Assembly: GCA_031259945.1 (NCBI GenBank)
Contig: JAIRKU010000024.1
Location: 1-40,914, forward strand
DNA from: Mycoplasmataceae bacterium
GTDB taxonomy: Bacteria > Bacillota_I > Bacilli_A > Mycoplasmatales > Mycoplasmoidaceae
Reading direction: 5' to 3'
Length of the DNA: 40,914 bases
Part shown: positions 13,993-19,382 of the stretch, in pieces
Position numbering within the stretch: position 1 is the first letter of the stretch
How the letters are laid out: every line of letters begins with the position of its first letter
Translations under genes and position numbers: made by a program
The notes under the pieces: model-generated
Told to the model about the DNA's origin: nothing
Seen by the model: only the letters and a program-made list of their open reading frames with translations
Database searches by the model: none

Positions 13993-14008
13993 TTGTAACT
14001 ATTCACCG
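13993..14008 (+). repeat. First copy of the GTAACTATTCACCG motif
   Basis: TTGTAACTATTCACCG, sharing the 14 bases GTAACTATTCACCG with 17016-17029 in the same orientation and 13 of 14 with the inverted copy ending at 17082. It lies between the divergent hprK and glycosyltransferase promoters. Confidence 0.6.
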
Positions 14009-14076
14009 AAAATAGACAAGCTCACTACAAGACTGAATAATATTCAATCATTGGTAGGCACAAATGTTCATTATTG

Positions 14077-14082
14077 TATAAT
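14077..14082 (+). promoter_or_regulatory. -10 box of a leaderless promoter for the glycosyltransferase
   Basis: TATAAT directly preceded by TG, six bases before the GTG at 14089. The spacing decides the start: the upstream TTG at 14074 lies before the transcript would begin. Confidence 0.6.
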
Positions 14083-14088
14083 TCTCTT

Positions 14089-15819
14089 GTGTTCAAATCG
14101 GAGACCAAACATTTAGCAACTAAATTAGCTGTAATAAAATTAATTTGTAACATAATCTTGTTATCGCTTGTTTCCATTTTTGTATTAATACAATTAATAT
14201 TATTATTATTTTACGTTAATAAAGTAAATGCAAGTGTCGTAATCAATCGAATAGATTATTTATTGATTTTTATTTTTATAATATTATGTTTTAATTTAAT
14301 GTTTAGCGGTATTTCAAGGAGAACAATCAGAAATAAATATATTAAAGAAACTCTAAGAATTGTTCACCAAGCTAAAATACCCAAAAAACTTCCCAAAGTT
14401 GTTTATGTTTATACAGTACACAATGATTTTATGCCGGCTAGACTATTGCAAAATATGAAGCAGACATATAAAAATTTTGAAGTGTGAATCTCTGATGGAT
14501 CCGATAACACAGAAATAATCCGAGAAGTTAATAACTTTGCGCAAAAACATAAAATTAGACTGTACAGGTTGGGCGGTAAGGGGAGCATAAGTAAATCTGA
14601 TAATTTAAATCATTTTTTACAATATTCTGGCGCACATTTTGATTATTTAATGATTGGAGACGCGGACGAAATTTTTGATAAATATTTTGTAGAGTGTAAT
14701 ATACGTTTTTTTTATAGTGATAAATTTGAAAAGCTAGCCTTCGTTTCTCCTTTAAACCAATGTTATAAAACTCAAGGTTTGTATACAAACATAATGCGGA
14801 ACATTGACAATATAACCATGTTCAACCGCGATTTAATAAAATCTGTTCAATTACGTGATTACTCTAACTTATATAGCGCTTCATGCTTAATATCTAGTAA
14901 ATTTATTCAAAGTATGAACGGCAAATTTCCAGATAGTGTTTTAGAAGATTATTATTCGGAAAATATAGCTGTTATGAATGGTTGAATAGGTATTGTTTCT
15001 GGTTTAACAGTTTGCACGCAAGCTTATGATGTTACAATTAAAGCTCATTATGCTCGCGTAATGCGAATACTCGATTGAATTATTAAATTAAGAAAACATG
15101 ATCCATTTAAAGATTACAATGAAAAATATTCAAGATGATTTATGCGGAGTTTTGTTTTAATTATTTTGCCCTTATTATTAATGATAGGTTTCATTGCACT
15201 AACAGTAACGATTTGGCTTATAGTAATAAACTGAACAATACTAATTAATGATACTTTTTTTATTTGTACTATTTGTATAGGTATTGGTTTTATCATTATT
15301 TCATCTCTAATTGCTAACTACGATACATCTAAAATAATTAAATTTTCAAATGGAATTTTATTGTTTATATTTACAATTCTTTATTCCCTAAGTTTTATAT
15401 CTTACATGTGTAAACATTGAATTTTAACTATTTGTTTTAATAAATATTCAAATTTTCTTACAGGTACTCAAAAAAGATTTCTCAAAAATAAATTATCATC
15501 AGTCTTTAAAAAAATATTACCAGATATTCTTATGCTTTTATTATTTGGATTTTTTTTATTTGTATTCAATTGATTATTTTATGAATTTTTATTTCCATTA
15601 ACAAATTTATCATTAGTTTTTTTTATACTAGGTAATCTAATTTTGGGGATTTTTACTCTAAGTTTATTTTCCACAATTGTTCTTTATATGTTTTCATTGA
15701 TTAAAATTAACAGATATGATCCCAATAAACCAATTTATTTTAAAAACAATTACGTAGCATCTACAGAAATAAAAGACAAATTTTATTCACAGCATTCTGA
15801 TTTGAAAAGAATATGTTAA
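14089..15819 (+). CDS. Membrane-anchored family 2-type glycosyltransferase
   Basis: A 576-residue processive-type glycosyltransferase. Two N-terminal membrane spans (about 10-40 and 55-78) lead into a GT-A domain of about 270 residues with DGSDN at 136-140 (the usual DDGS position) and the metal-binding DADE at 191-194. A later acidic pair in VLEDYYSEN matches the catalytic ED of the family, and KAHYARVMRILDW near 319 could be the equivalent of the (Q/R)xxRW region. At least five hydrophobic segments follow (about 354-385, 390-410, 422-443, 475-503, 508-538). Sugar donor and acceptor are unknown; a cell-surface polysaccharide or glycolipid is the natural product. GTG is used as start, set by the promoter. 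It stands convergent to the acyltransferase gene. Confidence 0.8.
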
Positions 15820-15831
15820 TTAAATTAAAAA

Positions 15832-16929
15832 TTATTGTATTACCTTAGCGCTTGATTTTGAATAATATGAATTGATTGTTGAAATTAATACATTAAGCGG
15901 CTTAGCAAAAAAAGCGGAAATACTAAATGAAATAAAATAAATAATAAAAAAAGCGCAATTACTAAATCCATTAAATTTTGGTTCAATATAACAAAGCGAT
16001 ATTATGAGAACTTCATGAATTAAAAAGAATGGTACCGAGATTTCACCTAAATAATTAAAAAAATAGTCAATCTTCAATTTTTCTATTTTGTTTGCAAGAA
16101 ATTGTGAAGCACTTAAAACGAAAATCGTAATGGACATAGGAATATACATACGAAAGAACGCTACATCATTATTAAATTGAATAATATTCTCGACAAACCA
16201 ATTGTCGTGTGGAATTATGGGGTTTTCTCCTCAATTGTACAACAAATAAGGAATAAAAAGTAATATAAAGCTACCCAATGAAATTGTTAGAGTCCTTACT
16301 TGTTTTAGTTTAATATAAAAGCCTATCCATACACCAATCATATATCCTATTAATACACGAATAAAGTCTTTTTGGCTTAAAATGAAATTGTAATTAAATG
16401 GTTTAAAAATTAAAGTATTCATTGATATCATTACAATAATTAAACCCAATGTTCATCATTTATTAACTTGTGATAAAAATTTGTTTATCAACGGAGATAT
16501 CATTAAAATAATAGCATATATATATATGTATCATCAGGCGTAATCGTTACTAAAAAATAATGAATTTTTAATTCATTCTAATATAGTTTCATGACGTTGA
16601 TTAAGCGAAAAATATAAAATTAATGTTAGTAAAAACAAAAATAGCGAATACACAACTATCATTGTAACAGCAGTTCACCTATATTTTGTGTTATTTTTCA
16701 AAAAATAACCAGACACAATGGTAAATGCTACTACGCAAATCCCTCCGTTAAATATTTGAGATAAATAAATATCGCTGTTAACTTTACCCAGAATACTTTT
16801 ATCTAAAAAGAAGTGACAAATAAATACTATCGAGATTAATAAAAAGCGATAAACTTCAATTATTCCATTCCTTTGCCTACTTCTAAAAAAATTCGTATAT
16901 TTTTTATTCATTATTTTTTTATTCGCCAT
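15832..16929 (-). CDS. Acyltransferase 3 family membrane protein
   Basis: A 365-residue protein with about ten hydrophobic segments, fitting the integral-membrane acyltransferase-3 family (OafA/WecH type) that adds acetyl or other acyl groups to surface sugars. The N-terminal part shows RNGIIEVYRFLLISIVFICH, which corresponds to the family's R-x-x-x-x-D/E-x-x-R...H core, and ICVVAFTIVSGYFL, which corresponds to its characteristic F-x-x-SGY motif. A middle segment NDYAWWYIYIYAI fits the family's conserved WY region. Several of its Trp codons are TGA. The gene is divergent from the kinase gene and convergent with the glycosyltransferase. The acceptor is probably the product of the neighbouring genes, but that rests on context. 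Confidence 0.75.
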
Positions 16930-16947
16930 AATACTTTCAAGATAGGT

Positions 16948-16953
16948 TATACT
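16948..16953 (+). promoter_or_regulatory. Putative -10 box for the leader ORF and kinase gene
   Basis: TATACT on the plus strand, 16 bases before the small ATG at 16970 and 148 bases before the kinase ATG. If used, the message carries the whole (CA)10 and hairpin region as its leader. Confidence 0.35.
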
Positions 16954-16969
16954 TATCGGTAGGTTAATA

Positions 16970-17068
16970 ATGACAAGATTATACTTGATTAGACGCGCTC
17001 AAACAACTAACATTCGTAACTATTCACCGGGTTTGTTTGCGTCCACACACACACACACACACAAGTAG
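16970..17068 (+). pseudogene. Short leader ORF running through the CA repeat; possible histidine-phosphatase remnant
   Basis: A 32-codon frame opening MTRLYLIRRAQTTNI, with GGTAGG six bases before the ATG. The opening resembles the first strand and phosphate loop of histidine phosphatases (xxLYLIRHGQT), with the catalytic RHG read as RRA. After 15 codons the similarity stops at the base where the inverted repeat begins. The frame then crosses the (CA)10 tract as Thr-His repeats and ends at TAG. It could be a gene fragment cut by the repeat element, or a leader peptide whose end depends on the number of CA units. I cannot show that it is translated. Confidence 0.35.
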
Positions 17069-17084
17069 CGGTGAACAGTTACGA
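17014..17084. repeat. Inverted repeat enclosing the CA tract
   Basis: Left arm TCGTAACTATTCACCG (17014-17029) and right arm CGGTGAACAGTTACGA (17069-17084) pair over 15 of 16 bases with a 39-base loop that contains (CA)10. The arms are two of the three copies of the motif in the window. The structure could be an RNA hairpin in the leader of the kinase gene or the ends of a tiny insertion-like element. Confidence 0.7.
17044..17063 (+). repeat. (CA)10 dinucleotide microsatellite
   Basis: Ten perfect CA units, 38 bases before the kinase start codon. Long dinucleotide runs are prone to slippage during replication and are typical of contingency loci; this is the only such run I see in the window. 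Confidence 0.9.
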
Positions 17085-17101
17085 CTAAAAGGAATAATTC
17101 A

Positions 17102-18121
17102 ATGATTAAAAATAATTCATTTAATTCAACGAGATTTTTCAATTCCATTTCTGTCGTCGACAACGGTAAAAATGTTAAAAAAAAATCAATTTATTTATCT
17201 AAATTTAAAGACGAAATAAATTGATTTATTAACTTACCAAAATCGCTTACAAAATTTATCCCAAAAGTGAATAATTATTCACTAAAACCTACAATGTTTA
17301 TAAAATATGAAAATATTGCTGTGCCAACTATTCATTTTTTTTATGTAAATGGCGAAAATATTAATTGGTCTATTGTTAGAAAACTATATAGTTCATTATT
17401 GTCTAATTTCCATTCGTTTAAACCAAGAACCTTCAATCGAACTTATTGACATGATGCGCTAATTGACATCTATCTCGCAAAAACTATAACTCGATTATTA
17501 AAAATTTCACTTGATAATCGATTTCTGCCTTTTTTTAAGTCTAGAACTGTTAGAATCAACAATAAGTTATATCCCTCTGCTAACACTATTAAAAATTATC
17601 TATATTTAGAATTAAAAAAAATGCTAAATAATCAAGATATCAATCCGATTTTATTGGATATTTGTACTCCTAGAAAGAACAACATTTGTTTGTTTCATGG
17701 AGATTTATGCTTTTCTAATGTTTTTATTGATACTCATAAAAAAAGTATTAAGTGTATAGACCCCAGAGGTTCGTTTGCTAGTGACAAAATGTATGGAGAT
17801 ATATTATTTGATTACGCAAAAATTACTCAATCGGCCTTAGGTTTATACGATTTAGTAATTGAAGATAAATTCAAGTTGACGTACGATCATAAAAATATTC
17901 AATATAAAATTTTTCTGCCATCTAATTATTCTGTTATTCAAACTGAATTTACTAAATTTATACCCCAAAAATATAAAAAACAAATTCGCCTCATTGAATC
18001 TTTACAATTCTTGTCAATGATTCCGTGGCACAACGATAAGCCACAAAGACAAATTGTTTTTTTATGTATCGGTATTAAATTATTTTGCGAATATATTGGA
18101 GAAGATAAATGATGAAAATAA
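17102..18121 (+). CDS. LicA-like small-molecule kinase (APH/choline kinase fold)
   Basis: A 339-residue phosphotransferase. The Brenner-type catalytic motif HGDLCFSN lies at 199-206 (catalytic Asp201, metal ligand Asn206) and the metal-binding DPRG at 220-223, in the layout of aminoglycoside/choline kinases. The sequence HGDLCFSNVFID...IDPRG is the form I associate with kinases encoded beside sugar or polyol nucleotidyltransferases in capsule loci; the true substrate is unknown. Start ATG 17102 has AAAGGA eight bases upstream. The final codons include two TGA Trp before TAA, so the gene overlaps the nucleotidyltransferase start by 13 bases and the two are surely co-translated. The (CA)10 tract and hairpin in the leader may modulate its expression. 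Confidence 0.75.
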
Positions 18122-18837
18122 TCGTTACAGCTTCTGGGGGGGGGAGACGATTTTATGATTCTGGCTTTCAAACTCCAAAATATAAAATTATTGCCAATGG
18201 TCATAGTCTGTTTTATTGGTCGCTTCTTTCGCTTAAATCATTACGTAAATATTTTTTTTGTTTAATCTTTAATCGGCACAATTATGATAAACAATTTGTA
18301 GAAATTGAATTGCAAAAATTATCTATTAAAAACTACAAGATAATTGTTTTGCCTAAAATAACTGACGGACAAGCGACGACTGCGATGGCAGCTAATAAAT
18401 TTATGAAATCGAATGATAGTGTTGTTATTTATAACATAGACACATACATTAAACCTGGAATCATTAATAGAAATATTTTTAAATATGATGGTAATATTAC
18501 TACCGCAAAAGCAAAAGGAAATCATTGGTCTTTTGTAAAACTGGGCAAAAACGGCTTTGCAACTGCTACCTCTGAAAAAATAAGAATTTCCTCAAATTGT
18601 TCTATTGGTTCTTATTATTTCAAACGATGAAGTGACTTTAAAAATATTTATAAATGTTTTAAAAATAAAATTAAAACCCAATATAAAGAGGTTTACATTG
18701 CTCCAATGTATCAATTCATGATAAACCAAGGTAATAAAATTGGAATTAAAAATATAAAAATGAATAATATTGTTTCTTTAGGTACACCAAAAGAAGTTTC
18801 TAAATTTGATAAAAATTTTGTTAAAAATAATTACTAA
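18109..18837 (+). CDS. LicC-like nucleotidyltransferase with phase-variable G9 tract
   Basis: A 242-residue NTP transferase. The N-terminus KIIVTASGGGRRF...TPKYKI is a version of the nucleotide-binding signature (usually MAGxGSRFxxxG...PK), and VIYNIDTYIKPG near 105-116 holds the metal-binding acidic pair of the family. Such enzymes activate phosphocholine, sugars or polyol phosphates to CDP, UDP or dTDP forms; with the upstream kinase it would form a phosphorylate-then-activate pair like LicA/LicC. The run of nine G at codons 10-12 lies inside the nucleotide-binding loop, and gain or loss of one G gives early stops. GGAG stands about seven bases before the ATG. The stop overlaps the end of the opposing phosphatase gene by four bases. 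Confidence 0.75.
18136..18144 (+). repeat. G9 homopolymer inside the nucleotidyltransferase
   Basis: Nine consecutive G in a strongly AT-rich gene, encoding Gly-Gly-Gly of the active-site loop. In the present length the gene is in frame (ON). No other G or C run of this length was seen in the window. Confidence 0.9.
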
Positions 18838-19382
18838 ATTTTATATTTTATTGGGACACCGTTTTTTGGAGTAATTGCTATCGTAGATTTATCTTTATTT
18901 GAAAAATAGAAATTAAATAAACGACCTACTCAAGAATGGGCAACAACAACTATTGTTTTTTTAGAATGTATTTTAATAATTTGATCTATAAATGGTTTAA
19001 TTCGCTTAAAATACATGTCTTGGATTGTTTCAACACCATTATCTAAATCAGAATTTAAATCTCAGTTAGACATATCGTATATATCTTTACTTATTGTTGG
19101 TTTTAGTTCTAAACTACCAAAATTTCGTTCAGATAATCTTTCATCTATTATCACTTTTAATTTATGGCTCTTAGCTAATGGTGAAGCTGTTTTCCTTGCT
19201 CTAATAAGTGGCGAACTATAAATCACATCAATTCTAGTGTTCTTAAAAAAAACAACTAGTTCTTTAGATTGATGTAAACCAATTTTTGATAATGGTAAAT
19301 CTGTTTTTCCATTCCATATTTTTTTTACATTGGTTTCTGTTTGACCGTGACGAACAAAATAAATATTCATATTTTTATACAT
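18834..19382 (-). CDS. Histidine phosphatase (phosphoglycerate mutase-like)
   Basis: A 182-residue branch-1 histidine phosphatase. The phosphohistidine motif FVRHGQTETN lies near residues 9-18, the substrate loop SSPLIRARKTA near 56-66, the proton-donor region LSERNFGSLE near 83, and the second catalytic His is in VVVAHSWVGRLF near 145. The specificity cannot be told from sequence; small size fits a phosphatase more than glycolytic mutase. A TGA Trp at 19062-19064 joins the two halves. ATG 19382 is chosen because TATAAT lies six bases upstream; the second Met, four codons later, is the alternative. The TAG end overlaps the nucleotidyltransferase stop by four bases. Confidence 0.85.

Follow-up and report, generated by a model that had tools for sequence, protein, structure and literature searches.

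A putative poly-G contingency locus in the catalytic loop of a mollicute nucleotidyltransferase, and poly-G leaders in sister genomes

Background

Contingency loci of the licABC and capsule/LOS poly-G kind are known from Haemophilus, Neisseria and Campylobacter. The repeat-switched contingency genes of mycoplasmas include vaa of M. hominis and p78 of M. fermentans, both of which carry poly-A (as cited in PMC2831843), and MmyCI mod, which carries AG repeats (PMC3498834). The leader-peptide attenuator of the two S. gallolyticus pilus loci, pil1 and pil3, contains GCAGA repeats; repeat slippage alters the length of the leader peptide and hence terminator read-through (PMC3894217).

Here we describe a run of nine G residues within a sugar-phosphate nucleotidyltransferase gene of an uncultured gut mycoplasma. 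Judged from its sequence the run is very probably a poly-G contingency locus which switches the enzyme ON and OFF. Taken alone, the locus is a further case of a known type of repeat switch; the genus-wide poly-G system to which it appears to belong is the more interesting result.

Genome, genetic code and relatives

The window, by which we mean the whole stretch of DNA analysed (41 kb), is contig C15 of a mollicute genome of 848 kb in 28 contigs with 88% completeness. Beyond the window, the sequence of this genome was read in stretches surrounding tracts and matches. The length of the G9 tract at this locus is known from one assembly. Translation of the ORFs of the window indicates that TGA specifies Trp, only table 4 giving long, conserved reading frames. 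The relatives within the genus comprise MAGs that bear the name "Mycoplasmataceae bacterium" (among them Pcl387_bin181 and Roe453_bin32), together with one uncultured Ureaplasma sp., RUG14531. We take isolate codes such as Pcl387 and Roe453 to come from surveys of termite guts, and RUG from surveys of the rumen. The features discussed below are collected in Table 1.

Table 1. Features of the window, and poly-G tracts elsewhere in this genome and in the nearest relative (G024)
Feature	Location	Strand	Remarks
Membrane glycosyltransferase 2	window 14074..15819	+	neighbour gene in same island
Membrane acyltransferase (Acyl_transf_3)	window 15832..17013	-	counterpart in sister genome G024 bears G9
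APH/choline-kinase-like small-molecule kinase	window 17102..18121	+	HGDxxxxN...DPRG motifs; overlaps nucleotidyltransferase start
Sugar-phosphate nucleotidyltransferase	window 18109..18837	+	242 aa with TGA=Trp; ATG 18109; ON in assembly (G9, in frame)
G9 tract	window 18136..18144	+	codons 10-12 of nucleotidyltransferase (Gly-Gly-Gly)
TAA closing G10 (and G7) frame	window 18183..18185	+	product 25 aa (24 aa for G7)
TAA closing G8 (and G11) frame	window 18263..18265	+	product 51 aa (52 aa for G11)
Histidine phosphatase	window 18834..19382	-	adjoins kinase-nucleotidyltransferase pair in most relatives
Lipoprotein signal regions with tract	C11; C26		G9; G8
Lipoprotein near-copies	C7; C26		G9, frame broken (OFF); G7, frame intact (ON)
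Third lipoprotein	C14		G9, OFF by one base
PMM-like phosphatase	C27		G10, OFF by one base
Alpha/beta hydrolase, PAP2 phosphatase, PTS permease, ABC permease			further coding tracts
G024 island L158	C101:5000-14200		kinase last codons G8; acyltransferase G9 (ON); NAD epimerase G10 (OFF)
G024 L133	C59		G9 in RmlA active-site loop, the equivalent catalytic loop of another nucleotidyltransferase

The nucleotidyltransferase

Because TGA is read as Trp in this organism, the nucleotidyltransferase gene ends at 18837, and termination at the TGA at 18628 was rejected. Its homologues, which begin at the following ATG (18112), are present in 8 of the 35 other genus genomes searched, with 44-73% identity. 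A contig scan of the genus genomes gave no match with the single protein as query and 14 loci with alignment A1. The best solved relative in a profile search was 4EVW, a nucleoside-diphosphate-sugar pyrophosphorylase of Vibrio cholerae (E 3.5e-45), and 4EVW was also the closest by fold (TM 0.87, E 8.9e-22) to an AlphaFold model computed from 11 aligned sequences (pLDDT 94.4). RmlA was matched as well, and the match to LicC (1JYK, TM 0.70) was weaker than that to 4EVW. The protein has the hallmarks of the 4EVW-like nucleotidyltransferase superfamily, namely a G-x-G-x-R loop after the first strand, followed by the PK(Y) lysine, within a Rossmann-like fold. The original prediction of a nucleotidyltransferase is thus borne out by profile and fold. 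Homology and the model likewise agree that the tract encodes the Gly-rich nucleotide-binding loop of the active site; in the model its residues connect strand 2-7 with helix 12-16.

In alignments of relatives the first Gly of this loop is invariant, the third nearly so and the middle position free. Among the 11 sequences compared GGG-GGG-GGG occurs in this one only; the other 10 homologues have mixed Gly codons and no tract, and conservation of the tract in the enzyme family was accordingly rejected. Conservation of one tract length in related species, named beforehand as evidence against a switch, was therefore not found. The loop already demands Gly, so that a switch placed here costs almost no change of sequence. 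The same requirement for Gly at positions one and three means that only the middle codon and the choice of codons need change for a neutral homopolymer to arise, that is, for three Gly codons to have drifted to GGG without selection for switching; on the evidence of the following sections we nevertheless consider this origin unlikely.

Length and frequency of the G tract

The nine Gs lie exactly where they had been reported. They form the single run of nine in the window, other runs of G or C reaching five at most: the spectrum of run lengths falls steeply to five and, after a gap, gives one nine. That run lengths leave a gap between 5 and 8-10 counts in favour of a switch. Such a leap from five to nine, without gradual decay, speaks against neutral drift, as does the codon usage, GGG making up 8.5% of Gly codons and the tract being the sole GGG-GGG-GGG. 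If the decay of run lengths within the window is extrapolated, runs of nine or more should number 0.002 in a stretch of its size and 0.04 in the 848-kb genome; the genome in fact has seven such loci, and six of these lie clear of contig ends or have coding sequence as flanks. Runs of eight or more number 13 in the genome versus 0.3 expected. The tract thus exceeds chance length, as in a contingency locus, and the claim that G9 is improbable by chance in such AT-rich DNA is upheld. Across the genus, runs of eight or more range from 0 to 69 per genome. Most genomes of the order contain a few G runs of this length (mostly 0-5, maximum 21, in 39 genomes sampled, including this one), which tells against taking such a run by itself as proof of a switch.

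One G19 run stands at a contig end (C16:71-89), which might suggest that G9 too is an artefact of sequencing or assembly, for example of two-colour poly-G calling. We regard this as very improbable, since G9 is mid-contig and in frame, its coding flanks on both sides are conserved in eight relatives, and separately assembled relatives carry tracts of the same kind. The contig end itself (G000 C16:14-89, L006) has runs of seven C, eight C and nineteen G in succession and may represent a hairpin, or else an artefact of poly-G sequencing.

Consequences of slippage

In silico, the reading frame is kept by tracts of G6, G9 and G12 and lost by G7, G8, G10 and G11. A change of one unit cuts the protein early, as is characteristic of contingency loci, and the original prediction that the G8 and G10 frames would reach TAA within about 60 codons was right (Table 1). 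The upstream kinase, whose final codons are TGA TGA AAA TAA (WWK-stop), has the same length at every tract length computed, which rules out that it is also switched by the tract. MutS was absent from all 36 genus genomes searched (control positive in 11 of 14), so slippage would escape correction by the MutS route.

Similar tracts in this genome and in G024

Elsewhere in this genome, the genes with tracts of eight or more include lipoproteins and a PMM-like phosphatase, and three genes are frame-shifted OFF. Two lipoprotein copies, on C7 and C26, are 95% identical over 389 nt and their sole indel is the tract (G9 versus G7); tract lengths therefore differ between gene copies at the level of DNA. 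This difference argues against the view that the tract slips in transcription or translation, RNA-polymerase or ribosomal slippage mixing the frames and lowering expression rather than switching it. The OFF genes do otherwise keep intact downstream frames in the assembly, and transcriptional slippage on homopolymers is established in reduced AT-rich genomes; even so, we rate this explanation as improbable, more so than neutral drift. As to the latter, several G7-G8 runs of this genome lie in genes resembling ligA, gatA and purL, and the presence of some such runs in housekeeping and transport genes means that a run of this length is by itself no proof of a switch. The OFF alleles, however, fall in lipoproteins and a sugar enzyme, and in the sister species the genes with tracts cluster in the same island.

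The nearest relative, G024, has an enzyme 73% identical and without a tract; its tracts are found in other genes of the island and in the loop of RmlA (Table 1). Comparison of the sequences suggests that between species the tract has shifted position while the switched island is unchanged. The proposal of an ON/OFF slippage switch is therefore supported in substance, by the clean truncation, the lack of tract conservation, the OFF genes and length-variant copies elsewhere in the genome, and the tracts of the G024 island.

Also in G024, a G8/G10 run lies at the apparent acceptor start of a tRNA in two near-identical contig-end copies (L122 and L162) which differ in the number of Gs.

The island and a proposed pathway

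Most of the grouping of kinase, nucleotidyltransferase, phosphatase, glycosyltransferase and acyltransferase is found again in relatives. The similarity of the kinase to APH/fructosamine-kinase is weak, and its profile search against the PDB found no relative. The natural reading of the island is a pathway in which a small molecule would be activated and then put on a surface glycan or lipid, the surface role being suggested by the neighbouring genes.

We infer that slippage at the G9 locus would be reversible and would act as follows. During replication the tract would gain or lose one G, MutS correction being lacking. With G9 (or G6 or G12) the full nucleotidyltransferase would be made, with G8 a stub of 51 residues and with G10 one of 25. 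The enzyme, together with the upstream kinase, would activate a small molecule or sugar, from which the glycosyltransferase and acyltransferase encoded nearby may make a surface glycan or glycolipid. Through slippage, cells would then differ from one another in one surface decoration, switched off in some and on in others.

Other features of the window were noted. In the region 16970-17100, upstream of the kinase, (CA)10 at 17044-17063 lies within a short ORF starting MTRLYLIRRAQTTN, which by eye resembles the start of a histidine phosphatase and may be either the remnant of a gene or a further site of slippage. The motif GTAACTATTCACCG is dispersed: it occurs at window 13995-14008, 17016-17029 and 17069-17082 and at other sites in the genome, frequently at the ends of contigs. 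In many cases GGGTTTGTTTGCGTC(CA)n with variable n comes after it, and it also occurs upstream of several leaders in G024; it may be a mobile repeat or a site of recombination. Between 20189 and 24341 are genes resembling, by eye, NuoE/NuoF-type subunits and an [FeFe]-hydrogenase (TSCSPGW, MPCTAKKHE, ACPGGCVNGGG), which are unusual in a relative of the Mycoplasmataceae.

Poly-G leaders in sister genomes

At least 29 of the 50 tracts of G024 lie within one repeated 5' leader. A model of this leader (R1) matched 34 times in G024, 20 in G027, 11 in G023, twice in this genome and once in G006; its automatic RNA structure missed the terminator stem, and the hairpin was assessed apart from the model. 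The layout is a TATAAT box, a leaderless ATG, a tract of G7-G11 about 13 nt on, stops in two frames and a terminator hairpin (sister genomes G024, G027 and G023; examples are L119:1477-1598, L205 and L222). In the 52 leaders parsed the ATG follows TATAAT by 5-9 nt (6-7 nt in 48), a spacing resembling that of leaderless mRNA. All 54 leaders assessed have the hairpin, and 43 distinct stems occur among them. In each of the 52 parsed leaders at least one frame runs into the hairpin, in 49 of them exactly one, and the closed frames end 8-50 nt short of it; when the spacers were shuffled, exactly one frame was open in a mean of 25 and a maximum of 36 of the 52 (200 trials). The copies are related, so that the 49 do not count as independent events, but the pattern is shared by three species and by both hairpin spacings. 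As assembled, 17 leaders belong to the read-through class and 35 do not. The genes behind them code for lipoproteins or membrane-anchored proteins.

On this layout slippage would shift the leader stop with respect to the terminator hairpin, as in an attenuator. It is likely, in our judgement, that the switch in the window is part of a poly-G contingency system that spans the genus, forming one coding arm of it, the other arm being a regulon that comprises 52 or more genes for surface proteins in G024, G027 and G023 in which tract length would set the expression of each gene independently by translation-coupled attenuation. This genome has two weak copies of the leader (C4:13003-13115, with ACG in place of ATG, and C18:459-577); these being the only matches here, a leader in the intergenic regions of the window was rejected. 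An Rfam search with the leader gave no family and chance-level matches only, and neither poly-G leader attenuators nor poly-G contingency in these bacteria came up in a literature search of partial coverage, which leaves absence unproven. To our knowledge the leaders would form the largest set of phase-variable attenuators.

A mollicute lineage thus keeps poly-G tracts in AT-rich DNA and inside Gly-rich catalytic loops, in the window enzyme and separately in RmlA and the epimerase of a sister species. Candidate poly-G switches of this kind number in the dozens in its genus relatives, many lying before surface-protein genes, which points to surface variation in gut symbionts, beyond pathogens.

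Comparison with known systems

As in the licABC and capsule/LOS loci, a gene of surface-sugar biosynthesis would be switched, and the logic of kinase plus nucleotidyltransferase resembles that of LicA plus LicC. The suggestion that the locus mirrors these systems holds as an analogy of working and not as membership of the family. Unlike in licABC, the switch is in the nucleotidyltransferase and not in the kinase; the kinase gene lacks a CAAT tetranucleotide repeat at its 5' end, there being only (CA)10 upstream of it, and LicC chains are absent from the profile matches at E<=0.02, the likeness being one of fold. 4EVW differs from the window enzyme in having no comparable Gly-Gly-Gly loop (MAGMSSRF).

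The leaders of the sister genomes, as far as their sequences tell, would resemble pil1/pil3 in coupling repeat slippage, leader length and terminator read-through; they differ in having poly-G at no fewer than 52 surface-protein genes, and the device does not act on the window gene. With vaa, p78 and MmyCI mod the window locus has in common slippage of a 5' coding repeat, a frameshift switch and a mollicute host with TGA=Trp. It differs from these in that its tract is poly-G, and not poly-A or AG, in AT-rich DNA, and in that the target is a sugar-nucleotide enzyme whose catalytic loop is the tract itself.
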